From: Candidatus Limivicinus sp.
GTDB taxonomy: Bacteria; Bacillota; Clostridia; Oscillospirales; Oscillospiraceae
DNA: 34,043 bases
Direction of reading: 5' to 3'
Assembly (NCBI GenBank): GCA_029264685.1
Contig: JARHZW010000067.1
Location: 1-34,043, forward strand
Shown piece by piece: positions 3,736 to 32,806 of this stretch (position 1 is the first letter of the stretch; the number at the start of each line of letters is the position of its first letter). A program made the position numbers and the translations under genes. A model generated the notes under the pieces. The model made no database searches, was not told the DNA's origin, and worked only from the letters and a program-made list of their open reading frames with translations.

Positions 3736-3950
3736 TTGTACCTCCGATTCAACCATTAAGTATAAACCATTTATGTAATATTTTGAAAATACACTTATTT
3801 TGTATCAAAAAAATACTTTTACTCTGTATATGTCATAAGCTTAATATGTTTTAAGGGATCCGTCAAGATTATTTTCCGAGTTTTTACTCACAGGAAAAGA
3901 AAAAACAAGCAATCAATTTAAATATTTAATTCATAAAATCGCAAAAGTGC

Positions 3951-3979
3951 TTGACAAAGTCATTCAAGGGTATTATTAT
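3951..3979 (+). promoter_or_regulatory. Promoter of the T-box/trpXYZ unit
   Basis: TTGACA (3951-3956) and TATTAT (3974-3979) are 17 bases apart. The predicted start near 3986 sits just before the T-box leader. The stretch 3736-3950 upstream is AT-rich and shows no gene. Confidence 0.8.
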
Positions 3980-3989
3980 GTGTCCATAA

Positions 3990-4265
3990 TATCTTTAAAC
4001 CTGAGATGAAGAGTAAGTAGCTTTCAGAGTGGTTTTCAGAGAGCCGTCGGTTGGTGTGAGGCGGCAGCTGTGCGGTTAGCGAATGGACTTCTGAGGGTGA
4101 CCGAAAGCATTTTGTGTGAGTAGCAGTCAACGGGTATTCCGCACCCGTTATCAGAGCGGAATCGTATGATGGTACGGTTATGAGCGGGTATTTTCATACC
4201 AACTTGGGTGGCACCGCAGGTTTTTCTCCTGTCCCTTGATTTTAAGGGACAGGATTATTTTTTTA
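3990..4265 (+). promoter_or_regulatory. T-box riboswitch, tryptophan specifier (UGG)
   Basis: A tRNA-sensing leader. Stem I includes the AGTA side of the specifier loop near 4012-4016, the AGAGAG and GGTTGGTG elements (about 4039-4057), and the specifier context GAA-TGG-A with TGG at 4084-4086. The conserved T-box TGGGTGGCACCGCA lies at 4205-4218. The variable base after UGG is C (4212), which would pair with a G discriminator, as bacterial tRNA-Trp has. A terminator follows at 4227. When uncharged tRNA-Trp binds, the antiterminator forms and the importer is transcribed. The downstream genes fit known tryptophan-regulated TrpXYZ-type transporters. Confidence 0.92.
4227..4265 (+). terminator. 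Regulated terminator of the T-box
   Basis: An 11-bp perfect stem (4227-4237 with 4244-4254, loop of six bases) is followed by a T-rich tail. It lies directly after the T-box sequence and is the alternative to the antiterminator. Confidence 0.9.
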
Positions 4266-4353
4266 TTCAGAGGTATTTTCTATGTATATTTTATCGAAAC
4301 GATGGCAAAGACTTACTTTTCTCACAACATAAAAATTTATGGAGGATTGTAAA

Positions 4354-5325
4354 ATGAAAAAAATAATATCAATAATAATATCTGTACTTTCCGTTTTTTC
4401 TCTTGCTGCCTGTGGAAATAAAAATGAGGCACAAACTGACATTCCGGTGATCGGTATTTCTCAATACGGCGAGCATCCTTCTCTTGATAACTGCTTTAAC
4501 GGCTTTTTTTTGGGGCTCGAAGAAGCAGGGCTTCAAGAGGGCGTGGATTTTAAGTATATTTATCAGAACGCCGGTTTTGACGACAATGTGGCAGTACAGA
4601 TTGCTCAGAATTTTTCGGCAAAAAATGTTGATTTGATGTGCGGCATAGCTACAAATTCAGCTACAGCGTGCTATGCGGCGGCTGAGGACAAAAACATTCC
4701 CGTGATTTTTAACGCAATCACCGATCCGGCAGAGGCGAAGCTTGACTCCGGAAATGTGACCGGAGTTTCCGATAAGCTCCCAATAGAGGCCCAGCTGAAG
4801 CTTATAAGAGCCTGCCAGCCGGATGCAAAAACCATAGGAATTGCATACACCACAAGTGAGCCTAACTCGGTCTCTGCTATTTCGGAATACAAAGAAAAAG
4901 CACCGGAATTCGGGTTTGAGATAGTAGAAGCCGGCGTCACATCACAGTCTGAGGTAACTCAGGCTATAGACAGCCTAATTCAGAAAGGTGTTGACTGCAT
5001 TTCCAACCTCACCGACAACAGCGTCGTTGGTGTATTGGATTCTGTGCTTGACAAAACTTCAGAAGCGGGAATTCCGGTTTACGGCAGCGAAATAGAACAA
5101 GTCAAGAAAGGCTGTGTTGCATCGGCAGGAATAGAATATGTGGAGCTTGGAAAGCAGGCAGGCAGAATGGCGGCTAAGATTTTAAAGGGTGAAGCAGGAT
5201 GCGAAGAAATTCCTTATGAAACAGTTACTGAGTTTCAGATATATATAAACAGCAATGAACTGAAAAAGATGAACCTTGTACTTCCACAGGATATGGCTGA
5301 CAAGGCACAGGATGTTTGCGAATAA
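4354..5325 (+). CDS. trpX: TrpX-type ABC transporter substrate-binding lipoprotein
   Basis: The chosen start is ATG at 4354, since GGAGGA at 4341-4346 is correctly spaced for it and overlaps the earlier ATG at 4339. The 323-residue protein begins with a lysine-rich signal peptide and a lipobox ending LAAC-G, so it should be exported and lipid-anchored. The mature part is a two-lobed type I periplasmic-binding fold of the family that includes TrpX (VIGISQYGEHPSLDNCFNGF; a hinge region with NLTDNSVVG and PVYGSEIEQVKKGCVASAG). It should capture tryptophan for the permease and ATPase encoded next. The tryptophan T-box upstream supports the substrate; the protein sequence alone would also allow another aromatic or branched amino acid. 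Confidence 0.88.
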   Translation: MKKIISIIISVLSVFSLAACGNKNEAQTDIPVIGISQYGEHPSLDNCFNGFFLGLEEAGLQEGVDFKYIYQNAGFDDNVAVQIAQNFSAKNVDLMCGIATNSATACYAAAEDKNIPVIFNAITDPAEAKLDSGNVTGVSDKLPIEAQLKLIRACQPDAKTIGIAYTTSEPNSVSAISEYKEKAPEFGFEIVEAGVTSQSEVTQAIDSLIQKGVDCISNLTDNSVVGVLDSVLDKTSEAGIPVYGSEIEQVKKGCVASAGIEYVELGKQAGRMAAKILKGEAGCEEIPYETVTEFQIYINSNELKKMNLVLPQDMADKAQDVCE

Positions 5326-5337
5326 AAGGATGATACA

Positions 5338-6231
5338 ATGGAGATTTTTGAATTAGTTGAAAGTACGGTTACTCAGGGTTTAATTTATGCTCTGCTTACA
5401 TACGGAATTTATATTACATATAAGCTTTTAGATTTTCCGGATTTAACAGTGGATGGAAGCTTCCCTCTTGGCGCTGCCGTTACTGCCGTGCTGCTGACAA
5501 AGGGCATGAACCCATTTCTGACCCTTTTAGCAGCAATGGCGGCAGGGGCGCTTGCAGGCTTTGCTACAGGCTTTATTCATGTGAAGCTTAAAGTCCGTGA
5601 CCTGCTTGCAGGAATTATTACCATGACGGCGCTTTTTTCAATCAACTTGCAGATAGCCGGTTCAAACCTGAATATAGGCCGTGAAATTGACACAATATTT
5701 ACCTCGGCGGTATTTAAGCCCATTTTCGGGTCTATGGCGCTTATACACCGAAAGATGATAGTTTCCCTGGTTCTGGTTTTGATATTTAAAATCTTCCTTG
5801 ATTTATATTTGGAAACAAAAAACGGTCTGCTGTTACGAGCCACAGGAGATAATGCTGCTCTTGTGACAACTCTTGCAAAAGACAAGGGCAAGATGAAAAT
5901 ACTGGGGCTTGTAATTTCAAATTCGCTGGTAGCTCTTGCCGGAGCGGTGGTGTGCCATGAGCAGAGAGGTTTTTCTGCCACTATGGGAACCGGTCAGATG
6001 GTATTTGGACTTGCGGCTGTAATTATCGGAACCACGATCTTTAAAAAGCTTTCTTTTGTTAAAGGTACAACCGCTGTTATAGCAGGAAGTATAATTTATA
6101 AGGCTTGCATCCAGCTCGCAATCAGCATGGGCCTGCCTGCAAACCTGCTGAAGCTAATTACCGCAGTGTTGTTTCTTTTTATTTTGGTTCTTGGAAATTA
6201 CGGGGAAGGCAGGAGCAGAAACAATGCTTGA
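5338..6231 (+). CDS. trpY: TrpY-type ABC transporter permease
   Basis: A 297-residue hydrophobic protein with about eight to nine membrane helices, starting at ATG 5338 after AAGGA. The N-terminal stretch YKLLDFPDLTVDGSFPLGAAV is a hallmark of the branched-chain-permease-like family that accompanies PF04392-type binding proteins. It forms the membrane channel for the TrpX substrate. It begins 12 bases after trpX and its last 8 bases overlap the ATPase gene, so the three genes are translationally linked. It shares control by the tryptophan T-box. Confidence 0.88.
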   Translation: MEIFELVESTVTQGLIYALLTYGIYITYKLLDFPDLTVDGSFPLGAAVTAVLLTKGMNPFLTLLAAMAAGALAGFATGFIHVKLKVRDLLAGIITMTALFSINLQIAGSNLNIGREIDTIFTSAVFKPIFGSMALIHRKMIVSLVLVLIFKIFLDLYLETKNGLLLRATGDNAALVTTLAKDKGKMKILGLVISNSLVALAGAVVCHEQRGFSATMGTGQMVFGLAAVIIGTTIFKKLSFVKGTTAVIAGSIIYKACIQLAISMGLPANLLKLITAVLFLFILVLGNYGEGRSRNNA

Positions 6232-6997
6232 ACTTAAAAATATAAAAAAAATATACAATCCGGGCTCAGTAACTGAAATGTGCCTGTTTGATAGCTTTAA
6301 TTTCACTATAAATGACGGGGAATTCGTCTCTGTAGTAGGCAGCAACGGCAGCGGTAAAACCTCCATGCTGAATATTATATGCGGCAGTATCCCTGTAGAA
6401 GGCGGAGAAATCCTGATAAACGGAGAGAAAATTAACGGTCTTGAAGACTATAAACGCTACCGCAAAATAGGCCGTGTCTATCAGAATCCCTCTATGGGAA
6501 CCTGTCCCAATCTTACTATGCTTCAAAACTTATCTTTGGCAGATAACAAGGGAAAACGCTTCGGTCTGAGCAAAGGTATCAATTATAAGCGCAGGGAGTA
6601 CTACAGAGAGCAGCTTGCCTCTTTGGGACTGGGGTTAGAAAATAAAATGGAGGTGAAGCTGGGGGCATTATCCGGCGGGCAAAGACAGGCGGTGTCTCTG
6701 GTTATGGCAACCCTTACACCTATAGATTTTCTTATTCTTGATGAACATACGGCGGCTCTTGACCCTAAAACAGCGGAAAAAATTATGGAGCTGACAGATA
6801 AAATAGTTAAAGAGAAAAATCTTACAGCTATTATGGTTACTCATAATCTGCGTTATGCGGTTGAATACGGAAACAGACTAATTATGATGGACAAGGGCCA
6901 TGTTATCCTGGATAAATCGGAAAGAGAAAAATCTGAGGTTAGTGTTGATGACCTGCTTCATATCTTTAATAAAATCAGCATAGAGTGCGGTAACTAA
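6224..6997 (+). CDS. trpZ: TrpZ-type ABC transporter ATP-binding protein
   Basis: The start is ATG 6224, inside the end of trpY, with AGGAG at 6211-6215; an earlier in-frame TTG at 6191 lacks such a site. The 257-residue ATPase has Walker A GSNGSGKTS, signature LSGGQRQAVSLVMA, Walker B FLILDEHTAALD and H-loop VTHNL. Walker B carries DEHTAALD in place of the usual DEPTxxLD, as known for this subfamily. It powers tryptophan uptake with TrpX and TrpY. No terminator-like hairpin was found directly after it; the next promoter begins at 7051. Confidence 0.9.
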   Translation: MLELKNIKKIYNPGSVTEMCLFDSFNFTINDGEFVSVVGSNGSGKTSMLNIICGSIPVEGGEILINGEKINGLEDYKRYRKIGRVYQNPSMGTCPNLTMLQNLSLADNKGKRFGLSKGINYKRREYYREQLASLGLGLENKMEVKLGALSGGQRQAVSLVMATLTPIDFLILDEHTAALDPKTAEKIMELTDKIVKEKNLTAIMVTHNLRYAVEYGNRLIMMDKGHVILDKSEREKSEVSVDDLLHIFNKISIECGN

Positions 6998-7050
6998 AAT
7001 GCTAATCATCCAAAATTTCGAGCATTGTAAAACATAACTATATATGGATA

Positions 7051-7097
7051 TTGACAACAGTCCGAAACCAGACTATAATAGTCCCGTTTCGGACTGT
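7051..7097 (+). promoter_or_regulatory. Consensus promoter inside a 41-bp palindromic operator
   Basis: TTGACA (7051-7056), a 17-base spacer, and TATAAT (7074-7079) form a perfect sigmaA promoter. Centred on 7077, within the -10 box, is a nearly perfect palindrome: outer 12-bp arms ACAGTCCGAAAC (7057-7068) and GTTTCGGACTGT (7086-7097), and inner arms GACTAT and ATAGTC (7071-7083). Only the two-base joints (7069-7070 with 7084-7085) fail to pair. This placement would block RNA polymerase when occupied, and the gene just downstream is a MarR-type repressor. Confidence 0.85.
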
Positions 7098-7131
7098 TTC
7101 GCAGCTGCGATATAAATGTGAGGTGATATGG

Positions 7132-7557
7132 GTGAATGAAGAATTAGGAAAATGGAACAGGCTCATTAAGCGTCAGGATGAGCTCTATCATAAGTGTGCC
7201 AGGCGCTCCGGTTTGACGGATGCCCAGTTTTGGGTTTTATATGCAGTGTGTGAAGAGGAGCAGCTTCTCTGCCAGAACACTTTCTGTGAAAACTGGTGTT
7301 ATTCAAAACAAACTGTGAGTACTGCGGTGTCCGGCCTTGAAAAAACAGGGCTGATACAGCTTTCCTATGCCAAAGGCTCAAAAAAGCAAAAGGATATAAC
7401 ACTTACAAAGGACGGGGAAATTTTTTGCGATAAATACATCAGGTCTTTACAGGCTGCGGAAGAAAAAGTTTTAAAGTCATTAAGCAAAAATGAGAGAGAT
7501 GCTTTTTTTAATACACTTGAGAGCCTACAGGTGAGACTGGAAAATGAACTGTTATAA
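7132..7557 (+). CDS. MarR-family transcriptional regulator
   Basis: Start GTG 7132 is chosen because the promoter at 7051-7079 places the transcription start near 7086, ruling out earlier starts, and AGGTG at 7121-7125 is suitably spaced. The 141-residue protein is a winged-helix regulator: LTDAQFWVLYAV begins the DNA-binding domain, YSKQTVSTAVSGLEKTGLI is the recognition region, and YAKGSKKQKDITLTKDG forms the wing. MarR proteins are dimeric repressors released by small phenolic or oxidising ligands. Five cysteines lie in the first half, so redox sensing is possible but not shown. It is the first gene of an operon with a nitroreductase and a MATE exporter, and probably represses its own promoter through the palindrome. 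Confidence 0.85.
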   Translation: MNEELGKWNRLIKRQDELYHKCARRSGLTDAQFWVLYAVCEEEQLLCQNTFCENWCYSKQTVSTAVSGLEKTGLIQLSYAKGSKKQKDITLTKDGEIFCDKYIRSLQAAEEKVLKSLSKNERDAFFNTLESLQVRLENELL

Positions 7558-7572
7558 TAAAAAGGAGAAAAA

Positions 7573-8085
7573 ATGGAATTTCAGGATTTAATTAAGAAGC
7601 GGTATTCATGCCGAAAATTTTCAGATGCCCCTGTATCGGCTGATTTGATTGAAAAAGTTATAGAGGCTGCGTCTTTAGCTCCTACTGCAATGAATACTCA
7701 GCCATTTAAAATATGGCTTATAAGTTCACAAGGTGCAAAAGAAAATATCAACTCTGTTACAAGCTATAGCTTTGGTGCAAATAATTTCATGGTTCTGGGA
7801 TCAAAGAGCGGGAATTCATGGGTCCGTCCATATGATAATATGGATTGCACTGATATTGACGCCGCTATTGCAGGGACACATATTATGCTTGCCATGTATG
7901 AATACGGACTTGCTACTACATGGGTAGCTTCTTTTAATGCGCCGGAACTTAAAAAGCTATACCCGCAAATGAGTGAGTACAAGCTTTTAGGACTGTTTCC
8001 TTTCGGTTATCCTGCCGCAGACTCAATGCCGTCCTCTTCACATGAAAAAAGGAAATCTTTCGGCGAACTGACGGAGGTACTATAA
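7573..8085 (+). CDS. Nitroreductase-family FMN oxidoreductase
   Basis: A 170-residue protein beginning IKKRYSCRKFSDAPVS, the classic N-terminal phosphate/FMN-binding motif (RxSxRxF) of nitroreductases. SLAPTAMNTQPFKIWLI provides the second FMN contact, and the C-terminal region LLGLFPFGYPAADS is the usual family ending. Members use NAD(P)H to reduce nitro compounds, quinones or other electron-poor molecules in the cytoplasm. The start follows AAGGAGA closely. It sits 15 bases after the MarR gene and 2 bases before the exporter gene, which suggests a detoxification unit. The physiological substrate cannot be read from sequence. Confidence 0.88.
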   Translation: MEFQDLIKKRYSCRKFSDAPVSADLIEKVIEAASLAPTAMNTQPFKIWLISSQGAKENINSVTSYSFGANNFMVLGSKSGNSWVRPYDNMDCTDIDAAIAGTHIMLAMYEYGLATTWVASFNAPELKKLYPQMSEYKLLGLFPFGYPAADSMPSSSHEKRKSFGELTEVL

Positions 8086-8087
8086 GT

Positions 8088-9455
8088 ATGCAGGAAAATC
8101 GTTTGGCACAGAAGTTCACCTTTAACAGCCTTATGAAATTCAGTATTCCAACCATGATAATGATGGTGTTTATGGCATTGTATCAAACGGTAGACGGTGT
8201 ATTCATCTCCAATCTTGTAGGCGAAATTGCTTTGACGGCTTTAAATATTGTCTACCCATATACAAGTGTTGTAATTGCGGTGGCTATAATGCTTTCAACG
8301 GGAGCAAGCGCAATTATTGCCAGAGACATGGGTATGGGTGAGACTCGCAGAGCGAAAGAAAACTTTTCTTTTATTGTACTGACAGGTGTTATGCTTGCGG
8401 TTATACTGACTGTTTTCGGACTGCTGTTCATTGATAAGATTATTTGGTTTCTGGGTGCCACACCTCGTATTCATAAGTTATGCTATGATTATCTCATAGT
8501 TATGGTGCTCTCCACTCCCCTTGCAATGCTCCAGATGCTGTTTCAAACCTTTTTAGTAACCGCCGGTAAACCAAAGCTGGGTCTTTTATTGACGGTTTCA
8601 GGCGGTATTACCAATATTCTGCTTGATGGCTTGTTTATGGGCCCTTTAAACATGGGGGTTCGTGGTGCTGCATTGGCTACTGCAATAGGCTATAGCTTGA
8701 CGGCTATTTACGGACTTGGATATTTTTCCTTGAACCGAAAAGGTCAGCTGTATTTTGTTAGGCCACGCCTGAGAATGAAAGTGCTGAAAAATACCTGTCT
8801 TAACGGAAGCAGTGAAATGGTAAACAACCTTGCTGTTGCAGTCACAACTCTGCTGTTTAATATAGTAGGTCTCCATTTTCTGAAAGAAGAAGGTGTGGCG
8901 GCAATCTCGATTATCCTATACGCTCAATTTGTCATGACCGCTGTATTTATAGGATATTCAAACGGTATTGCTCCTATTTTCAGCTATAAATACGGGGCCG
9001 ATGATTTGGTACAAATAAAAAAAGTATTCAAACTGAGCATATTTTTTGTCATAGGTGTTTCTGCTATTGTATTTTTGCTTTCCTTTGTGGTTTCAAAGCC
9101 TATTGCAATGGTGTTTGCCTCAGATAACCCATATGTTCTGGAACTTGCGGTACATGGATTTAAGCTCTTTGCAGTCTCTTTCCTTTTTTCAGGTATAAAT
9201 ATATTTGCTTCTGCATTGTTTACGGCTTTTTCTAATGGCATGATTTCCGGAGCTTTATCATTTTTAAGAACCTTTGCACTGCTTATTATTGCGCTTCTTG
9301 CTTTACCTGCTCTGATCGGCGTTGACGGTATATGGTTGGCGGTTCCTGTTGCTGAGGGCATAGCCGCCGTATTTTCTTTAGCTGCCTTGTTCATTTACAG
9401 GAAAAAATATCACTACGGTGGCAGTGATGGTAAACTTTATAATACGGCAGCATAA
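8088..9455 (+). CDS. MATE-family efflux transporter
   Basis: A 455-residue membrane protein with about twelve helices in two halves. MKFSIPTMIMMVFMALYQTVDGVFISN and the matching element LNIVYPYTSVVIAVAIMLSTG mark the MATE family, which exports drugs or metabolites in exchange for sodium or protons. FLGATPRIHKLCYDYLIVM and the mid-protein loop are typical of the clostridial DinF/NorM-like group. GGAGG precedes the ATG at 8088. It is the last gene of the MarR-nitroreductase operon and ends before a hairpin at 9505. Which compound is exported is unknown. Confidence 0.9.
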   Translation: MQENRLAQKFTFNSLMKFSIPTMIMMVFMALYQTVDGVFISNLVGEIALTALNIVYPYTSVVIAVAIMLSTGASAIIARDMGMGETRRAKENFSFIVLTGVMLAVILTVFGLLFIDKIIWFLGATPRIHKLCYDYLIVMVLSTPLAMLQMLFQTFLVTAGKPKLGLLLTVSGGITNILLDGLFMGPLNMGVRGAALATAIGYSLTAIYGLGYFSLNRKGQLYFVRPRLRMKVLKNTCLNGSSEMVNNLAVAVTTLLFNIVGLHFLKEEGVAAISIILYAQFVMTAVFIGYSNGIAPIFSYKYGADDLVQIKKVFKLSIFFVIGVSAIVFLLSFVVSKPIAMVFASDNPYVLELAVHGFKLFAVSFLFSGINIFASALFTAFSNGMISGALSFLRTFALLIIALLALPALIGVDGIWLAVPVAEGIAAVFSLAALFIYRKKYHYGGSDGKLYNTAA

Positions 9456-11966: not shown

Positions 11967-12053
11967 TGAATTTTCCTCCCCAAGATAAGCTGTGTTTAAA
12001 GAATAACATTTTATTTTTATCATTTCAATGCAGAAAAAATGAATTTTTTTAAA

Positions 12054-24642: not shown

Positions 24643-24733
24643 ATAGAAGATATTTCATGTTTAGTAAGACTTTTTAGCGGTAAAGTTCTGCTTTAACGTT
24701 TTGTTATTTTATATTTCTACAGGAGGGACTATT

Positions 24734-25972
24734 TTGAGACAGAGCAATTTGCTGTGTGAAAAACCCAGAGAGCATGTTTTCACCGGAACGGATAAATATC
24801 TCACGTTACAGAAAATCGTTGTGACGGAGCAGATGTACCCGGTTCTTGAATACGACAGTTATTTTATTTTGGTCAGAGACGGAACCGGTACATTCATAGT
24901 AAACGGTGAGGAGCTTCCTGTTGAAAAAAATTGTGTTGCATGGATACAAAGTTCACAGGTACTTACAATTGTACCGAATTTCGGCAGCAAGCTTGAGCTT
25001 TGGGTTTGCGATTATGACTATCAGCTTTTAAATTATTTTGTTTTTGAGCAGGTTTCCCTAAATTACGAGGCTGAAATTGTGGTGGGTATGCCAGTCATAG
25101 GCCCAAAGGGCGAGAATATAGAGCGTATAATAAGCTGTTTTGAACAGTTCAACCGCCTCTGCTCCTACAATAATAATTACTCTGCTGTTGTCAGAAGTTC
25201 TTTCCTTAGGAAAATCGAGCTGCTCTATTGCAGAGAAATAAGAAAGCATAAGGATGATTATAAATTCCGGGATCTTCCCTTGGGAAGAAAGGTTAGTCTT
25301 TATATCGCCACGCACAGTACCGACGACATCAATGCAGATTCGGTTGCCAAAGCAATTTCTCCTAAAGTTACCGGTGCAGATGTAAACCATGCCCTGCTTG
25401 TTACAACGGGAATGAATTTCAGCCAGTATATTATACGGCTGAGGCTTGTTATGGCAGCATCATATTTTCTGTATTATGGCTTGCCGTTTGATTACATTTC
25501 CGCAAACTCCGGCTTTGATATTGATGTGACCTTTTACAGAAACTTTAAAAAGCTTACCGGAATGACGCCGCAGACCTACAGAAGCAAAATGCTTAACAGC
25601 AAAAGCAACGGTCGTGTTTACCGTAAGCTTATAATCAGTGAGTCAATTATATCTACAATAAGCTTCCTGTACGAAAATCTGTCTGAACATATAGATGTAA
25701 ATACACTTTCCAAAGAGCTGTTTATTTCAGACAGCCTTATGAGAAAGCAGTTCAAGGATTATTTGCACACAAATTTCAAAAATGTTTTGGCACTTTTCAG
25801 AATTCGCTATGCGGAAGCCCTCCTCACTACCACGGATATGCCTGTACTTGACATTTCTATTGAGGCCGGCTTTATATCTGACCGTACATTCAGCAGGACC
25901 TTCTGCGATATAAACGGCATCTCCCCAGGGGAATTCAGAAAGAGACGCAGAGAGGGAAACAGAAATGACTAA
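24734..25972 (+). CDS. AraC-family regulator with two helix-turn-helix domains, next to the bai-type operon
   Basis: The start is TTG 24734, seven bases after AGGAGGG (24721-24727); an earlier TTG at 24701 precedes the site. The 412-residue protein has a cupin-like sensor domain (about 1-170; ILVRDGTGTFIVNGEELPVE). It then carries two separate AraC-type DNA-binding domains. The first, about 185-290, contains FDIDVTFYRNFKKLTGMTPQTYR; the second, about 310-405, contains IEAGFISDRTFSRTFCDINGISPGEF. Typical AraC proteins have one. AraC/XylS-type bile-acid regulators (Bar) are reported next to bai operons in Clostridium species, and this is the likely activator of the downstream operon. Its cognate ligand would be a bile acid, by inference only. 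Confidence 0.8.
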   Translation: MRQSNLLCEKPREHVFTGTDKYLTLQKIVVTEQMYPVLEYDSYFILVRDGTGTFIVNGEELPVEKNCVAWIQSSQVLTIVPNFGSKLELWVCDYDYQLLNYFVFEQVSLNYEAEIVVGMPVIGPKGENIERIISCFEQFNRLCSYNNNYSAVVRSSFLRKIELLYCREIRKHKDDYKFRDLPLGRKVSLYIATHSTDDINADSVAKAISPKVTGADVNHALLVTTGMNFSQYIIRLRLVMAASYFLYYGLPFDYISANSGFDIDVTFYRNFKKLTGMTPQTYRSKMLNSKSNGRVYRKLIISESIISTISFLYENLSEHIDVNTLSKELFISDSLMRKQFKDYLHTNFKNVLALFRIRYAEALLTTTDMPVLDISIEAGFISDRTFSRTFCDINGISPGEFRKRRREGNRND

Positions 25973-26516
25973 TAACGAGAAAAATACCGAGCCTGTGAAG
26001 AAAATTTCCAAGTTTGGAGAGACACACACCTATTTTATAAAAAATGTTCTTCCAAGCAGTATGAAAGCTCATAAATATAAAGTGTCCATGCCCAACTCCT
26101 ATATTCACATTCAGGATAACACTTTTATTCTTGTAACAGAGGGCACAGGAACTCTTACTGTAAACGGTATTGACTACAGGCTTGAACCGGACACCCTTGT
26201 AAGCTTAGGCTGTTTTCATGTTTTCCGTTTTACTCCTGATGAAGGGCAGGTACTTAAAATTACGGAGGCAAGAATAAACAGCGGCGCATATCTTTATCTT
26301 ATCGCTAATCCTTATTTCAAGGTGGATAAGTTTACTGTTCCTTCAGAACCTCCCATTTTAAAAGTTACCGGGCTTATGAAGGAACTCGCCTATGATGCTA
26401 TGGAGGGCTTATGCGCTGAATGCACCAGTGATGACGCTGATAAATATAATATGTGTTTTTGCTATATCACAGATTTGTTCGCTATAGCCAATGCTCCAAA
26501 AAGCTATAAACCTTAA
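25965..26516 (+). CDS. Stand-alone cupin-like sensor domain paralogous to the AraC regulator
   Basis: A 183-residue protein whose first bases overlap the end of the AraC gene by 8 (ATG 25965). It aligns by eye with the N-terminal sensor half of its neighbour: FILVTEGTGTLTVNGIDYRLEP here, FILVRDGTGTFIVNGEELPVE there; then similar spacing and a Tyr-rich stretch YLYLIANPYFKVD. No helix-turn-helix is present, as the frame ends at the conserved sensor end (SYKP). It therefore cannot bind DNA in the AraC way, but could form a complex with the full regulator or sense a ligand. It is not a truncated pseudogene: the frame is intact, the start is tightly coupled and a strong terminator follows. Confidence 0.7.
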   Translation: MTNNEKNTEPVKKISKFGETHTYFIKNVLPSSMKAHKYKVSMPNSYIHIQDNTFILVTEGTGTLTVNGIDYRLEPDTLVSLGCFHVFRFTPDEGQVLKITEARINSGAYLYLIANPYFKVDKFTVPSEPPILKVTGLMKELAYDAMEGLCAECTSDDADKYNMCFCYITDLFAIANAPKSYKP

Positions 26517-26608
26517 AATATATCCGTGAAAATTTTACATTATAATAAAAAATTTGATATTTTAATTTTTTACCCCGCAAAAATGTATGTAAAGTTTCAG
26601 TAAATGCC

Positions 26609-26660
26609 AAAGCTAACAAATAAGCTGTTCTTTGCACACTTATTTGTTAGCTTTTTTGCT
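26609..26660 (+). terminator. Terminator of the two-gene regulator unit
   Basis: A 16-bp perfect stem (26609-26624 with 26639-26654, 14-base loop) with a T-rich tail. It separates the regulators from the operon below, so that operon must have its own promoter. Confidence 0.92.
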
Positions 26661-26724
26661 TATTTTAGGTAGTAGTTTTGATAGAAATGTACAAGTTTTT
26701 AGAAAAACTTCATTTTTTGTCTAT

Positions 26725-26891: not shown

Positions 26892-27665
26892 ATGTTTGAG
26901 AATGAATTCAATGGTAAAGTAGTTATTGTCACCGGCGGCAGCCGTGGTATTGGTTTTGCAGCTGTTAAGGGCTTCCTTGCAGCAGGTGCTAAGGTTTGCT
27001 TCCTGAGCCATAAGGAAGAGACCGGCAAAGCCGCTATGGAAAAGCTGATGGCAATCAATCCTAACTACGAAGTTTTCACAAAGGCTATGGACCTTCGTGA
27101 ATGCGATTGGAAAGCCATGAAGGCACTTTTAGAGGAAGTCAATGAGAAATGGGGCCGTATTGATGTGCTCGTAAACAACGCCGGCACCGACTCCCACACT
27201 TGGATCACCAAGCTGAAGATTTCCGAGTGGGACGATGTTTTCAACCTCAACCTGAAAGCTATGTTCCTGATGAGCAAATATGCTCTGCCCTTCCTGAGAG
27301 AGAGCAAGGGCTGCATCATAAACACTGCTTCCGTTGCCGGTGTTTACGGTGCTCCTACCGGTATCCCCTACCCCACTTCCAAGGCTGCTGTTATCGCATT
27401 CACCAAGTCTCTGGCTTACAGCTATGCAGACAAGGGTGTCCGTGTTAACTGCATTGCTCCCGGTGTCGTTGACACTGACCTTGTTGGTGATCTGCCTCAG
27501 TTTGCTAAGGACTCCATCGGTGACACCATTCCTCTCAAACGCTTTGGTCAGCCCGAGGATATTGCAAACGCAATGCTCTTCCTTGCTTCCAGCGCAGGTT
27601 CTTACATCACTGCCCACTGCCTGCAGGTAGACGGCGGCTACAGACCCAGCAACCTTATCGACTAA
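26892..27665 (+). CDS. baiA: Bile acid 3-alpha-hydroxysteroid dehydrogenase-like SDR (BaiA)
   Basis: A 257-residue classical short-chain dehydrogenase: TGGSRGIGFA (14-23) binds the nucleotide, NNAG (95-98) is structural, Ser147 with Tyr160 and Lys164 form the catalytic group. The segments IINTASVAGVYG, GYPxSKAAVI-like PYPTSKAAVIAFT and VDGGYRP match BaiA of Clostridium scindens closely. BaiA oxidises the 3-alpha-hydroxyl of bile acyl-CoA to a ketone, and can also act in reduction. At the end of the second beta strand the sequence is LSHKEE where BaiA2 has an acidic residue, so NADP may be used. AAAGGAA precedes the ATG. It is the first gene of a five-gene operon. Confidence 0.82.
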   Translation: MFENEFNGKVVIVTGGSRGIGFAAVKGFLAAGAKVCFLSHKEETGKAAMEKLMAINPNYEVFTKAMDLRECDWKAMKALLEEVNEKWGRIDVLVNNAGTDSHTWITKLKISEWDDVFNLNLKAMFLMSKYALPFLRESKGCIINTASVAGVYGAPTGIPYPTSKAAVIAFTKSLAYSYADKGVRVNCIAPGVVDTDLVGDLPQFAKDSIGDTIPLKRFGQPEDIANAMLFLASSAGSYITAHCLQVDGGYRPSNLID

Positions 27666-27724
27666 TCAGTATTTTTGAGGTCAAAAAGTTTTAGCTAAAA
27701 ATGATAAATAAGAAGGTTTGTGTC

Positions 27725-29251
27725 ATGTCAAATACATACGAACATTTTAATATATTTAACCACGGGGAGGACAGCAAGTTCACTCCCGGCAAACAGCTGG
27801 CTAACATTGCAGCAGTCAAACCGGATGAAACTGCCCTTATCTATGTGTCAAATGAAAATGTAGAAAGCACTATGACATGGCATGAGCTTGAGCAATACTC
27901 CAACCGTATTGCCTGGTTTCTTATGGACAAGGGTATCGGTCCGGGCAGCAGCGTTATTGTTGCCCTGACCAACACCATTACCCATATTGCTTTGGCGTTT
28001 GGTATCTGGAAAACAGGTGCCTGCTATGCACCTATATCAAATCGCACGCCTAAGCGCAACATGATGGAAATATGCAGCTGTATTGAGCCTGCACTTGTGG
28101 TCACAAATCGCAATCAGCCGGCCGGCTATGAAAGCCTGACCAGCAGCGAGGTCAAGGAATTGTCCAGCACATACTCCAATGAAATGCCGCCTGATATTGA
28201 GGCCATTCCCAATATTGCCAACTGCTCCGGAGGAACATCCGGAAAAACCAAGGTTATTCAGCAGAATATTCCTGCCGGTGAAAGCGATGAAGGGCTTAAA
28301 AACTGGTTTCATAATTCAGGTATGCATTTTGAAATGCGGCAACTTCTGACCGGTCCCCTGTTCCACGGCGCACCTCATTCCGTTGCTTTTAATGGTTTGT
28401 ACTGCGGCAATACTTTGATAATGCCCGCAAATCTCAAAGCAGAGAATATTGTAAAGCTTGTCAGGGAATATAAGATAGAGTATCTTCAGATGGTGCCTAC
28501 TCTTATGCAGAGAATAATCCATGTTCCTGACTTCAAAAAGGAAGACTTCGCCTCCGTTGAGGCTCTGTGCCACACAGGCGGTATGTGTTCTTCCGACCTG
28601 AAGAAAAAATGGCTGGAGATTGTAGCTCCTGAGAAGCTTTATGAAATTTATTCCATGACGGAATGTGTTGGTCTTACAAGCATCAGAGGTGACGAGTGGC
28701 TCAAACACCCCGGCAGCGTTGGCACAATGGCTAACGGCTATATTTCTATCCGTGATGAAGAAGGAAATGAACTTCCCAATGGTCAGGTCGGCGAGATCTT
28801 TATGAGTTGGGGAGAATTCAGTCCTAATGTTGTCTATAAAAATATTCCTAATATCGAGGCAGATGATAAGGGCTTCAAGAGCGTCGGAGATATGGGATAC
28901 CTTGACGCTGACGGTTATCTTTATTTTACAGATATCAGAAGCGACATGATAGTCAGCGGCGGTGAAAATATTTTTGCAGCCGAGGTCGAAACGGTGCTTA
29001 AAAAACACGAAAAAGTTGTCGATGCTGTTATTGTTGGATTACCTGATAAAGAATGGGGCAGGCGTATTCACGCTATTGTTGAAGCGAAAAGCCCTGTTAC
29101 CGATAAAGAACTTATTAAGTTTTCCCTTAATTATCTTCCTCCTTATAAAATTCCTAAATCTTTTGAATTTGTCGATGAAATTCCCCGCAATGAAAGCGGT
29201 AAGCTTCTCAGACATGAAATGCTTGAGAACGCTATAAAAAAAGGATTTTAA
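27725..29251 (+). CDS. baiB: Bile acid-CoA ligase (BaiB)
   Basis: Start ATG 27725 (MSNTYEHFNIFN) is preferred over 27701: AGAAGG at 27711-27716 is spaced correctly only for the later one. The 508-residue protein is an adenylate-forming ligase: ATP motif CSGGTSGKTKV, YSMTECVGLT, SVGDMGYLDADG, SGGENIFAAEVE and the C-terminal NESGKLLRHE with the catalytic lysine. Segments GPLFHGAPHSVAFNGL, ALCHTGGMCS and IRGDEWLKHPGSVG agree nearly word for word with BaiB of C. scindens, which activates primary bile acids with CoA and ATP in the cytoplasm. It lies 59 bases after baiA. This is the clearest bile-acid gene of the window. Confidence 0.92.
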   Translation: MSNTYEHFNIFNHGEDSKFTPGKQLANIAAVKPDETALIYVSNENVESTMTWHELEQYSNRIAWFLMDKGIGPGSSVIVALTNTITHIALAFGIWKTGACYAPISNRTPKRNMMEICSCIEPALVVTNRNQPAGYESLTSSEVKELSSTYSNEMPPDIEAIPNIANCSGGTSGKTKVIQQNIPAGESDEGLKNWFHNSGMHFEMRQLLTGPLFHGAPHSVAFNGLYCGNTLIMPANLKAENIVKLVREYKIEYLQMVPTLMQRIIHVPDFKKEDFASVEALCHTGGMCSSDLKKKWLEIVAPEKLYEIYSMTECVGLTSIRGDEWLKHPGSVGTMANGYISIRDEEGNELPNGQVGEIFMSWGEFSPNVVYKNIPNIEADDKGFKSVGDMGYLDADGYLYFTDIRSDMIVSGGENIFAAEVETVLKKHEKVVDAVIVGLPDKEWGRRIHAIVEAKSPVTDKELIKFSLNYLPPYKIPKSFEFVDEIPRNESGKLLRHEMLENAIKKGF

Positions 29252-29308
29252 TTTCGTTTTCTGTTTTTGCGTTAAATAAATATTTTTAATCAAGAAAGGA
29301 AATTCAAC

Positions 29309-29833
29309 ATGATTGATGAGAAGAAACTGCAGGAACTGATTGACAAGGAAGAAATTAGAGACCAGATTTACACCTATTGCCGAGCACTTGACCGTATTGA
29401 CAATGAGTTGGGATACTCCGTATTTGCAGAGGACAGCCATGTTAACTACGGCCCTACCTTCCCCTCCGGAACAGGCAGAGAGTTTATTGACAATATGCTT
29501 GAGCAGCATCGTCATATGATCTCCACCCACCATATGATGACCAACGTCCTCATTAAGGTTAACGGAGACAGAGCTTCAAGCGAAACATATATGTATGCAG
29601 CGTGCAAGTTCCGCAAGGGCAAGAAGGGTAGCTACACCGTTGAAGCCCGCTGCCGTGACATTGACCGTTGGGAAAAACGTGATGGCAAATGGCTTATCGT
29701 TGACCGTGTTGTCGCCGGCGATAACACCTTCCTTTATTTCCCCGCTGAAACAAGTGATCTGGAAAACTACAATACCCATCGCAATAAGAAGAGAGAAGAA
29801 GATCAGTCTTATATCGTATTTAAAGACATTTGA
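29309..29833 (+). CDS. baiE: SnoaL/NTF2-fold protein, candidate bile acid 7-dehydratase (BaiE-like)
   Basis: A 174-residue protein of the SnoaL-like fold. Tyr23 and Asp28 in YTYCRALDRID align with Tyr30 and Asp35 of C. scindens BaiE (KYFRCLD), and His74 of ISTHHMMTN aligns with His83. In my remembered alignment, BaiE Asp106 falls on Ala97 and Arg146 on Gly137, so two reported active-site residues are missing. BaiE removes the 7-alpha-hydroxyl as water from a 3-oxo-delta4 bile acyl-CoA. The operon position (between baiB and baiG) supports a steroid role. It may instead be a BaiI-type isomerase or a 7-beta-acting relative. AAGAAAGGAA precedes the ATG. Confidence 0.65.
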   Translation: MIDEKKLQELIDKEEIRDQIYTYCRALDRIDNELGYSVFAEDSHVNYGPTFPSGTGREFIDNMLEQHRHMISTHHMMTNVLIKVNGDRASSETYMYAACKFRKGKKGSYTVEARCRDIDRWEKRDGKWLIVDRVVAGDNTFLYFPAETSDLENYNTHRNKKREEDQSYIVFKDI

Positions 29834-29886
29834 TCTGAACTATTTAAAAAGCAATACAACTTAATAAAAGAGAGTAGGTTTATATA

Positions 29887-31308
29887 ATGGAAAATTCTAC
29901 GCAGAAATCTTACATGAAAGGCTTTATGCCCTACGCAATAGTCGCAGCCGTACTCAGCCTTTGCGGCGGTTTTGGCGCACCTGTTCCTAATGCAATTGCA
30001 GCTTCATGGAACGCAGACAATTCTCTTGCATTCATTACTCTGGCATATTCTCTGGCTGCTGCAGCCCTTGCTCCTATTCTTGGTAAGCTCGGTGGTGCAG
30101 TCGGACGCAGAAAAATGCTCCTGACTACTCTTGGTGTTTACACCTTGGGTCAGCTCAGCCTTGCACTCTGCCCCCAGAATGTTAATCTTCTGCTTGTTTG
30201 CCGTTTCATCGCCGGTGTCGGCGCTGCAGGTATTCCTCCTGTGATCATGTCCTACATTATGATGGAGTTCCCTCCCGAGAAAATCGGAAAAGGCTTCACT
30301 ATTTACATGGCACTTTCCTGCGGCATGGTTATCTTTGGACCCACTGTCGGCGGTATCATAATGAATGCTGTTGGCGGACCTGATGCATGGCGTGTAATCA
30401 TGTGGATATGCGTTAGTATCTGCGTTATCACTTTTGCTGTATGCTGTGTTCTTGTTAAGGACAACCCCAATCTTCCCAAGGGCTCTATGAAAGGCTTTGA
30501 CTGGTTCGGCGCTGTTTTCGTACTGCTCATGTTCGGCGCACTCGTTTGTGTTCCCACCTTCGGTCAGCAGGACGGCTGGGGCTCAGTTACCACACTGGCT
30601 TCTATCGCTGTTGCTGTTATCGGCCTTGTTGCCCTCTTCTTCGTTGAAAGAAAGGCATCCAGCCCCATTCTGAGCGGTAAATTTATAGCTCGCAAAAACT
30701 TTGTTCTCCCCGTTATTGTTATGTTCCTTACTCAGGGTCTTATGACTGCCTGCCTTACCGAAATCATTCGTTTTGGTTACGCTATTGATAAGGCAGCTGT
30801 TGCCAGCGTTGCAATGTCTATCGAGTATCTCGGTATGGCAATCGGTACTATCGTTCTCGGACCTATGGCTGATAAGAAAGAGCCCAAAATTGTTGCAGCT
30901 ATCGCACTTGTATTTGTTGCAATCGGCTCCGGTATCATGATGATTATCAGTGAGACTTCCGGTGTTCTCCACATGGGCAGCGCTCTGTTCTTCGTTGGTC
31001 TTGGTCTCGGCGGAAATGTCACCATCTTCATGAAGGTCGCTATGTCCGGTGTTGAAGCTTCCGAGTCTTCTTCTGCATCCGGTACATTCAACGTGTTCAA
31101 GGACATGACCTCTCCCTTCGGCGTTGCAATTTTTGTTCCTATGTTCGTTACTAACATGACTCACAAATCCGCTACTATGGCAGTTCCTGCTGCTGCTGTC
31201 AGCGCTCTTCACTTTGTTGCCATTGTTCAGCTGGTTTGCGTTGCTGTCGGTATCGTATTCTGCTTCATGCTCCCCAGCGTACACGCTAAGACTGAGAAGC
31301 AGGCCTAA
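29887..31308 (+). CDS. baiG: Bile acid transporter of the major facilitator superfamily (BaiG)
   Basis: A 473-residue transporter with about 14 predicted helices. GKLGGAVGRRKMLL is the loop-2-3 signature of the superfamily, FIAGVGAAGIPPVIMSYIMMEFPP and LSCGMVIFGPTVGGIIMNA match BaiG of C. scindens closely, as do PVIVMFLTQGLM, GPMADKKEPK and FVGLGLGGNVTIFMKVAMSG. BaiG takes up unconjugated primary bile acids with protons. Codons ending in C or T dominate here more than in the neighbouring housekeeping genes, which suggests strong expression. The gene lies 53 bases after the dehydratase candidate. Confidence 0.9.
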   Translation: MENSTQKSYMKGFMPYAIVAAVLSLCGGFGAPVPNAIAASWNADNSLAFITLAYSLAAAALAPILGKLGGAVGRRKMLLTTLGVYTLGQLSLALCPQNVNLLLVCRFIAGVGAAGIPPVIMSYIMMEFPPEKIGKGFTIYMALSCGMVIFGPTVGGIIMNAVGGPDAWRVIMWICVSICVITFAVCCVLVKDNPNLPKGSMKGFDWFGAVFVLLMFGALVCVPTFGQQDGWGSVTTLASIAVAVIGLVALFFVERKASSPILSGKFIARKNFVLPVIVMFLTQGLMTACLTEIIRFGYAIDKAAVASVAMSIEYLGMAIGTIVLGPMADKKEPKIVAAIALVFVAIGSGIMMIISETSGVLHMGSALFFVGLGLGGNVTIFMKVAMSGVEASESSSASGTFNVFKDMTSPFGVAIFVPMFVTNMTHKSATMAVPAAAVSALHFVAIVQLVCVAVGIVFCFMLPSVHAKTEKQA

Positions 31309-31377
31309 TAATTCATATATTCTGCTTTTGTAAAGCGGTAATATAATTTTTACCTACATTTTGAAAGGATGTTTCCA

Positions 31378-32745
31378 ATGGAAGTAAAACAGATTTACAA
31401 CAAGCTTACTCAGAAATTTGATGAGTATCCTGAATTCGGTGTTCTTAAAGGTGTTAAGGTCTTTATTTCCGGTACCAACATTGCCGGTCCCTTTGCCGGC
31501 TGCCTGATGGCTCACATGGGTGCTAAGGTTCTTCAGGCTGAGGCTCCCACAATCGCCTGCCAGACCAGAGGTACTATGTCCTGGGCTCAGAACCACAGAA
31601 ACGAGTACTCCATTACTATTAACTCCGCTTCTAAGAAAGGTAAAGAAATCTTCCTCAAGTGCATTGAGTGGGCTGACATTTGGATAGAGGCCGGTCGTCC
31701 CGGCAGCTATGCAAAGCGCGGCATTACTGATGAGGTATGCTGGAGCCACAACAAGGCCCTTACTATCGTACACGTTTCCGGTTACGGTCAGTTTGGACCC
31801 TACAAAGATAAGGCTTCTTACGACGTTTCCGGTCAGGCAATGGGCGGCTATATGTACATGAACGGTGAGTCTCCCACATCCAGCCCCCTGAAGGTCAACC
31901 CCTATATTTCTGACTTTATGACTGCATACAACGTATGCATGGTTTCTCTGGCCGGTTACATCGGTGCTCAGCACTCCGGCGAAGGCGACTCCTGCGATGT
32001 TGCTATGTATGATAACATGTTCACTCTTCTGGACGATTATCCCGCAACCTGGTTCAACATCGGCTACCCCAAGCAGGGTGAGCCTGTTCCCTACCGTACC
32101 GGTAACAAGAGCGACAAGGCTGCTTGCTTCTCCTTCTATGATACCAAGGACGGCGGCGCAATGTTCATCGCTATTGTCGGTCAGGGTCCCGTTACCCGTG
32201 GCTATCCTATCATCGGCATGGGTACTCCCGGCAAGACTCCCGGTATTCCCAAGGACTGCACCGGATTCCCCATCCAGGATCCTCGTGGTCAGCAGGCAGA
32301 TCAGCTCTGCGCCAAGTTCTGCAAAGAGCACACCTGCGATGAGCTGGAAGAAATCTTCACCAAGGCAAACATTCCCTGCCAGAGAGCTTACGGTCCTGAA
32401 GATATCGAAAAGGATCCTCAGTACGCTGCTCGTGAGAATATTGTTGAGTGGGAAGACCAGTGCTTCGGTAGAATGAAGGGTATCGGCTGCACCAACATCT
32501 TCAAGAAGAATCCTTCTCAGATTGTTGCTTCCGCTCCCTGCTTCGGTGAGCATAACCGTGACGTTCTGTCCTCCTTCGGTTACTCCGAGGAAGAGATTGA
32601 TGAGCTGTACAAGAAGGGTGAACTGGTTACCTGGTCTCCCGCTGATACCGCTCGTATCAAGAACTTTGTTTCCTGGCACTACTTCTGGGATCCCGAAAGA
32701 CAGTGCAAGCGCATCGGTCTTGAGTATCCCCCCAAGCAGATGTAA
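31378..32745 (+). CDS. baiF: Bile acid CoA-transferase (BaiF), class III family
   Basis: ATG 31378 is preferred over 31369, since GAAAGGA (31363-31369) is better spaced. The 455-residue protein is a class III CoA-transferase. Shared with BaiF are SGTNIAGPFAG near the N-terminus, NHRNEYSIT, WADIWIEAG, HVSGYGQFGPY, ASYDVSGQAMGGYM and DVAMYDN; Asp212 is at the family's catalytic acidic position. It moves CoA from a processed bile acyl-CoA to a new primary bile acid, saving ATP. It is about 30 residues longer than BaiF of C. scindens, partly through a longer N-terminus. The gene ends the operon at a strong terminator. Confidence 0.9.
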   Translation: MEVKQIYNKLTQKFDEYPEFGVLKGVKVFISGTNIAGPFAGCLMAHMGAKVLQAEAPTIACQTRGTMSWAQNHRNEYSITINSASKKGKEIFLKCIEWADIWIEAGRPGSYAKRGITDEVCWSHNKALTIVHVSGYGQFGPYKDKASYDVSGQAMGGYMYMNGESPTSSPLKVNPYISDFMTAYNVCMVSLAGYIGAQHSGEGDSCDVAMYDNMFTLLDDYPATWFNIGYPKQGEPVPYRTGNKSDKAACFSFYDTKDGGAMFIAIVGQGPVTRGYPIIGMGTPGKTPGIPKDCTGFPIQDPRGQQADQLCAKFCKEHTCDELEEIFTKANIPCQRAYGPEDIEKDPQYAARENIVEWEDQCFGRMKGIGCTNIFKKNPSQIVASAPCFGEHNRDVLSSFGYSEEEIDELYKKGELVTWSPADTARIKNFVSWHYFWDPERQCKRIGLEYPPKQM

Positions 32746-32777
32746 TTTTACATTTGCCTTAAAGCAAATAAATTTAA

Positions 32778-32806
32778 CTCCGCCTTTATTAAGGCGGAGT
32801 TTTTTT
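32778..32806 (+). terminator. Terminator of the bai-type operon
   Basis: A GC-rich 9-bp perfect stem CTCCGCCTT (32778-32786) with AAGGCGGAG (32791-32799), four-base loop, followed by seven T. Confidence 0.95.

Follow-up and report, generated by a model that had tools for sequence, protein, structure and literature searches.

Can an operon of five bai genes that holds neither baiCD nor baiH belong to a pathway of bile acid 7-dehydroxylation? The question is raised by a 34,043-nucleotide stretch of DNA from Candidatus Limivicinus sp., an uncultured gut bacterium of the Oscillospiraceae (GenBank assembly GCA_029264685.1, contig JARHZW010000067.1). This stretch, the window, is the entire contig C41 of a metagenome-assembled genome (MAG; 2.13 Mb in 121 contigs, 97% complete, 0.91% contamination; label G000). 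Between positions 26892 and 32745 it carries five open reading frames (ORFs) in one direction, without internal stops, in the order A-B-X-G-F and with intergenic gaps of 35, 57, 53, and 60 bp. An earlier sequence-only reading matched the five genes to BaiA, BaiB, a BaiE-like protein, BaiG, and BaiF, and, on seeing no baiCD or baiH, proposed that the missing enzymes lie elsewhere, that the host performs part of the pathway, or that the operon works on another steroid. The results reported here make us confident that the window holds the uptake and activation module (barA, barB, A, B, G, and F) of a dispersed, apparently complete bai regulon, and that X is an accessory SnoaL_4 protein.

The reference for all C. 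scindens identities was the operon B-CD-E-A2-F-G-H-I of genome G915, which we take to be C. scindens ATCC 35704, and its family f7 to be Lachnospiraceae.

Results

The enzymes absent from the window are encoded on other contigs

A search of the source genome with PF00724 gave five genes of the old yellow enzyme (OYE) type, two of them on contig C105, and a search with PF13577 gave four SnoaL_4 genes, located on C105, in the window (X), on C102, and on C13. C105 carries BaiCD, followed directly by a true BaiE, and on the opposite strand BaiH and a short-chain dehydrogenase/reductase (SDR); the C13 gene is BaiI (Table 1). BaiB, BaiCD, BaiE, BaiA, BaiF, and BaiH are all encoded by C41 and C105, and the genome as a whole holds orthologues with open frames for B, CD, E, F, G, H, I, barA, and barB of C. 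scindens, together with an A2-like SDR. The absence of baiCD and baiH thus holds for the window and not for the genome, and the proposal that the missing enzymes lie elsewhere was borne out. Since they are present in the same genome, neither complementation by the host nor another steroid is needed, and both were set aside. As to the latter, the six enzymes encoded by C41 and C105 are only 41–67% identical to their C. scindens counterparts, which would fit a different substrate. However, the curated BaiB model is exceeded by 211 bits, the bai set in the genome is full, and similarly arranged sets act on bile acids: BaiB and BaiA of UBA11811 on cholate, and that of Eubacterium sp. c-25 in making deoxycholate. 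A steroid from outside the bile acids is therefore extremely unlikely as the substrate of the operon.

The gene set might also appear split as the result of an artefact, with C105 or C41 misbinned or adjacent loci broken during assembly, and a MAG in 121 contigs invites such a suspicion. Pairwise tetranucleotide correlations (r) were 0.88–0.93 among C41, C105, and C13 and 0.88–0.95 among C41, C105, C102, C27, and C13, whereas those of C41, C105, and C102 with nine other genomes were at most 0.73; in view of the signature common to C41, C105, and C13, bin contamination was not supported. Both modules are, moreover, flanked on each side by other genes within their own contigs, the window module by an ABC/FtsX transporter and by GNAT/CAT-family genes, and the C105 module by DNA polymerase III delta together with a DUF4093/Toprim gene at one end and by ten glycan-type genes at the opposite end. 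The bar-A-B-G-F module also stands apart in the congener G1152, next to SpoIIIAH, although the G1152 contig C44 begins at baiCD. We consider an artefact very unlikely.

The window genes A, B, G, and F have relatives in the C. scindens operon

Four of the five assignments made from the sequence alone, those of A, B, G, and F, stood (Table 1), and the third gene proved not to be BaiE, as described below. Window B scored 861 bits against the curated BaiB model NF038344, the cut-off of which is 650, and in a phylum-wide draw of 398 genomes this model matched the source genome only. In a ligase tree of 22 rows, 14 bai-linked BaiB proteins and the divergent ligase B2 of G1090 split from seven outgroups with support of 100/100. 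Window F resembled BaiF of C. scindens (44%) more than CaiB of E. coli (34%). The gene order, as had been claimed, is unlike that of C. scindens, and of the two places where terminators had been predicted to bound the operon, the one before it has a likely terminator and the one after it an intrinsic terminator.

Table 1. Features of the window and of the bai genes on other contigs of the source genome
Feature	Location	Strand	Assignment and evidence
barA	window 24701–25972	+	AraC-type regulator with two C-terminal helix-turn-helix stretches; PF12833; 36% identity to G915 barA
barB	window 25965–26516	+	Small cupin-like protein, 8 bp overlap with barA; Cupin_2 weak (E 0.001, under cut-off); 29% over 97 aa to G915 barB
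Hairpin 3' of barB	window 26609–26654	+	AT-rich hairpin with a T-run behind it, a likely terminator; fold of 26600–26670, z −4.15
Candidate BarA/BarB site	window 26704–26724	−	Common to region upstream of baiCD; position weight matrix (PWM) score 21.1
baiA	window 26892–27665	+	SDR, 3α-hydroxysteroid dehydrogenase-like; top solved match C. scindens BaiA 4is2, E 1.5e-51; 41% to G915 BaiA2
baiB	window 27701–29251	+	Bile acid-CoA ligase; NF038344; solved BaiB 4lgc, E 3.1e-168; 50% to G915 BaiB; tree
Gene X	window 29309–29833	+	SnoaL_4 protein, third clade beside BaiE and BaiI; PF13577, 89 bits; tree 98/99; 69–77% to X of G888/G915, depending on method
baiG	window 29887–31308	+	Major facilitator superfamily (MFS) transporter; PF07690; 44% to G915 BaiG
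baiF	window 31369–32745	+	Class III CoA-transferase; PF02515; 44% to G915 BaiF, 34% to E. coli CaiB
Operon-end terminator	window 32776–32801	+	Intrinsic terminator, 11-bp stem and T-run; fold z −6.9
BaiH	C105 (L028) 2972–4969	−	67% to C. scindens H
SDR	C105 (L028) 5042–5797	−	42% to C. scindens A2
BaiCD	C105 (L028) 6332–8266	+	54% to C. scindens CD
BaiE	C105 (L028) 8300–8833	+	True BaiE, right after BaiCD; 62% to C. scindens E
BaiI	C13		SnoaL_4; 47% to C. scindens BaiI

Regulatory genes and a shared upstream site

Ahead of baiA (24701–26516) stand barA and barB, a pair that the earlier reading had overlooked. Window barA was 31–67% identical to araC genes that adjoin bai genes in relatives. 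The two regulatory genes are separated from the A-F genes by the long AT-rich hairpin, which was absent from a consensus terminator scan that permits loops of 3–8 only.

Sites starting ATGTACAAAA were found upstream of baiCD in seven genomes, in six of them within the interval that separates CD from H or SDR; in the seventh, G1152, the contig ends there. A PWM built from these seven sites, all of which lie outside the window, gave its top score in the 34-kb window at 26704, before baiA, and this score was reached in none of 100 shuffles. The motif was discovered by comparison of the window with C105, so that the later scan is partly circular; five other region pairs compared in the same way gave no match that clearly stood out. 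These results suggest that BarA and BarB probably control both modules through the shared candidate site.

The module in related genomes and in published loci

The comparison of gene order in relatives that had been proposed gave a divided answer: the set was contiguous in L008, in G153, and, with an insert, in the congener G1090, while the bar-A-B-G-F module stood apart in the congener G1152. On the single contig of L008, E-CD is divergent from SDR-H-barA-barB-A-B-G-F. In G153, which has a second F, E-CD and H-barA-barB-A-B-G-F run in divergent directions; G997 is arranged as G153 from A to E, with baiB adjoining A. On one contig of G1090 we found F-MFS-B-A, a second bar/ligase module, and barB-barA-H-SDR divergent from CD-E; another MFS protein occupies the place of BaiG. 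G1152 carries bar-A-B-G-F on C23, and CD-E at the very start of C44.

Three side observations were made in these genomes. The baiCD match of G997 (L064 5877–7791) is in two pieces in different frames, possibly through a frameshift or a sequencing error. Besides a second barA/barB pair, the second module of G1090 (L107 7556–12539), between baiA and barB, encodes a ligase that is 34% identical to BaiB and a distantly related CoA-transferase. In three g70 genomes with BaiB, the sole BaiE relative is divergent (37–42% by tblastn), falls in a clade of its own (99/98), and lies apart from the other bai genes seen (L112 9851–10300, L113 8598–9047, and L114 4732–5181).

Three known systems resemble the source genome. 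The cluster 1 locus of Oscillospiraceae, UBA11811, reads E(−) CD(−) H(+) barA barB A B G F F (PMC9426597, Table 1); it has in common with the source genome the order barA-barB-A-B-G-F, E and CD divergent from H, and a related host family, but it is a single locus, has a second F, and lacks a SnoaL gene in the interval from B to G. Eubacterium sp. c-25 makes deoxycholate, and its bar-A-B-Glike-F, CD-E, H, and I are separate transcription units, with baiI distant; cholate induces baiB, baiCD, and baiH (PMC8623032). The source genome is alike in having barA/barB upstream of A-B-(transporter)-F, CD-E as its own unit, H apart, and baiI far off. It differs in that the c-25 locus tags are consecutive save for baiI, whereas its own A-F module lies on another contig; in that the c-25 transporter is BaiG-like at 22% identity, whereas the window has a BaiG relative at 44%; and in that the window operon includes X. 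Each gene of the canonical C. scindens operon, as read from G915, has a relative in the source genome (29–67% identical), but the genes form one operon there and at least three loci in a different order here. Because relatives and published loci carry matching modules, we regard the window as holding one module of the known bai type, moved to its own locus. The contiguous sets in several relatives and the similar published arrangements argue that the source locus is a physically dispersed variant of that type.

Glycan-type genes form a conserved cluster next to baiE on C105 (L028 8955–18346), with four ATPgrasp_ST genes, a TupA-like ATP-grasp gene, a polysaccharide pyruvyl transferase gene, two GT2 genes, and an octopine-type dehydrogenase gene. 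Relatives of the cluster adjoin baiE in G153, G997, G1090, and G1152, and similar genes occur in G888 (L040, L064, L065, L108, and L109). They may serve to make a surface polymer connected with the use of bile acids, or they may be a travelling island.

Gene X forms a third SnoaL_4 clade

A tree built from 35 SnoaL_4 proteins supported the clade of X (nine rows) at 98/99, that of BaiI (seven) at 95/96, and that of BaiE (11) at 79/88. The mean identity was 70.6% among X proteins, 18.8% between X and BaiE, and 17.8% between X and BaiI. X matched no NCBIfam family at E 0.001, and solved BaiE chains only at E 0.35–0.49. An alignment of 27 X, BaiE, and BaiI proteins contained six invariant columns, including those of BaiE Tyr30, Asp35, and His83. 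These three residues, with Asp106 and Arg146, reportedly belong to the BaiE active site (Bhowmik et al. 2016). At the Asp106 and Arg146 positions, all nine X proteins have Ala and Gly, respectively, so that three of the five residues are kept. The assignment of X as BaiE was therefore rejected, as it falls outside the BaiE clade at approximately 19% identity with two of the five residues replaced. BaiI was rejected as well, since its clade excludes X and the source genome has its BaiI on C13. Judged from the tree and these residues, X is a third SnoaL_4 clade, distinct from the two families with which it shares the Pfam family and the three core residues. A scan of viral contigs gave no relative of X, and we found no earlier account of X, or of the bai-linked glycan genes, in the openly accessible parts of the literature.

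Distribution and neighbors of X

X was counted only at an identity of at least 60%, which left out weaker matches of 37–41% (G093, G070, and G1037) as well as others that fell short of 30%. In 400 genomes of the family, including the source, six others had X, and all six had BaiB. Among the 15 BaiB genomes examined (14 of a list of 22 BaiB-positive genomes, and that of L008), X was present in nine: G000, G1090, G993, G997, G070, G147, G153, G888, and G915. Every genome found to have X thus has BaiB (9/9). At this threshold X was absent from the BaiB genomes G1152, G041, G680, G976, and that of L008, and G1037, which is 65% complete, showed a match of merely 37%. G093, with a weak match to X, had no BaiB at 1e-60.

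In a sample of 200 genomes, BaiB was found in four of the 199 others. X occurred in three of four BaiB genomes and in none of 195 others (Fisher p 3e-6; the test assumes that the sample lies within the 400 genomes, and the three positives come from two genera). A search of 397 genomes was aimed at BaiE only and gave four positives, all from f7, in which we then looked for X: G888 (77%) and G915 (73%) have it, and G680 and G976 do not.

X lay near bai genes in four of the nine genomes. It is part of the window operon; it is downstream of baiE and 4 and 7 bp from baiI in G153 and G997, respectively; and in G888 it is separated from baiE by approximately 8 kb. The X gene of G915 is flanked by the genes for ribosomal proteins L1 and L10 and has the same orientation as these (L106 9807–10298, minus strand), a placement that would tie its expression to growth and not to bile acids. 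In the remaining four genomes X was apart from the bai genes seen. The genome of L008 and G1152 have the bai set (H was not seen in G1152) but matched neither X nor BaiI at 1e-15; since they hold the set without X, we regard X as accessory.

Additional steroid-type and flanking genes

G070 has in a row a BaiI-like SnoaL gene, an SDR gene, an X-like SnoaL gene (40%), and an OYE gene (L067 8370–12151); these make up a second reductive cluster of steroid type in a genome that carries bai genes. In the source genome, C102 (L029 11012–19146) carries OYE, SnoaL_4, and SDR genes followed by TRAP transporter-like genes (judged by eye); the SnoaL_4 gene adjoins the SDR gene, with the OYE gene nearby, and the group is possibly another reductive pathway. 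The window itself ends in a gene of the chloramphenicol acetyltransferase family (PF00302; 33517–34041, minus strand) that is truncated by the contig end.

Discussion

A pathway for the source organism can be drawn after the published C. scindens scheme, with roles that we infer from sequence. BaiG would import cholate or chenodeoxycholate, BaiB would form the CoA thioester, and BaiA would oxidize the 3-hydroxyl. On C105, BaiCD would bring in the Δ4 bond and BaiE would take off the 7α-hydroxyl. BaiF would transfer CoA, and BaiH, BaiCD, and an SDR would carry out the ring reduction, both modules being probably governed by BarA/BarB. X would most likely dehydrate a bile acid or intermediate that is not a substrate of BaiE, and it would be dispensable for the core set.

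A number of results speak against this interpretation. The phylogenetic check that had been proposed gave BaiB a place within the bai group, but without B2 the support for this group was just 61/59, and in a tree of 18 F rows a single bai group appeared in only 14% of the bootstrap trees. The set is apparently complete as judged from B, CD, E, F, G, H, I, barA, barB, and an A2-like SDR. No match to the bile salt hydrolase family PF02275 was found in the source genome, whereas the hydrolase is reported for 41 of 41 human cluster 1 MAGs (PMC9426597), so that conjugated bile acids would need the hydrolase of another bacterium. As for co-regulation, the motif is AT-rich, the matrix also scored 20.3 at 12028, within an unrelated ORF, and no site on the BaiI contig C13 exceeded 11.8. 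The sites before baiA of relatives were weaker than that of the window (19.7 in G1152, 19.0 in G1090, 15.1 in L008, and 13.5 in G153). The structure of X predicted by single-sequence AlphaFold2 was too poor for use (mean predicted local distance difference test score, pLDDT, 42.9), and the role of accessory bile acid dehydratase is a candidate one, argued from association and three residues.

What, then, might X do? The kept Tyr-Asp-His core and the company of bai genes argue for a steroid dehydratase that acts where BaiE does not. One possibility, which we put forward tentatively, is that X may act at another position or in another reaction, such as ketosteroid isomerization or dehydration at the 12- or 6-hydroxyl, and so widen the bile acid range of bai bacteria. 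SnoaL/NTF2 proteins do act elsewhere, the SnoaL-type SteC removing the 12β-hydroxyl (PMC13101464); X-related genes adjoin OYE, SDR, and BaiI-like genes in G070; and pocket residues are altered while the core residues are kept.

X could instead be the clostridial bile acid 7β-dehydratase, acting on 3-oxo-Δ4-ursodeoxycholyl(-CoA) and thereby opening ursodeoxycholate (UDCA) or ursocholate to 7-dehydroxylation with the other Bai enzymes, which we consider rather unlikely. The 7β-dehydratase activity of C. scindens is separable from BaiE, with BaiI merely hypothesized as its carrier (PMC10382948), and BaiI homologues of Chol11 were inactive, the authors of the Hsh3 study expecting further enzymes in Clostridia (PMC12175502). 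Both C. scindens strains tested convert UDCA to lithocholate (LCA) when cholate is present (PMC11293179), and G915 has X. The replacement of Asp106 and Arg146 by Ala and Gly around the kept core would fit a different stereochemistry, and X lies only a few base pairs from baiI in two genomes. On the other hand, BaiI is an equally open candidate, and X of G915 lies among ribosomal protein genes, outside the bai operon. E. muris is also said to convert UDCA to LCA in vivo (PMC11293179), while the f7 bai genomes G680 and G976 have no X, although these may not be Extibacter genomes. More broadly, X might found a third bai-associated SnoaL_4 dehydratase family, common to the C. scindens family and Oscillospiraceae, and at the same time be this 7β-dehydratase for UDCA 7-dehydroxylation, a proposal that we hold to be doubtful.

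The interpretation of the window as the uptake and activation module of a dispersed regulon, with X as an accessory protein, means that bai pathways are modular and that judgement from a single locus would wrongly call a genome incomplete. The operon extends the published arrangement, its new element being gene X. As a conserved gene that is also present in G915, X is a candidate for a dehydratase activity that has been measured biochemically without a proven gene. It may thus bear on the consumption of the drug ursodeoxycholate by gut bacteria, a role that can be tested in culturable species.

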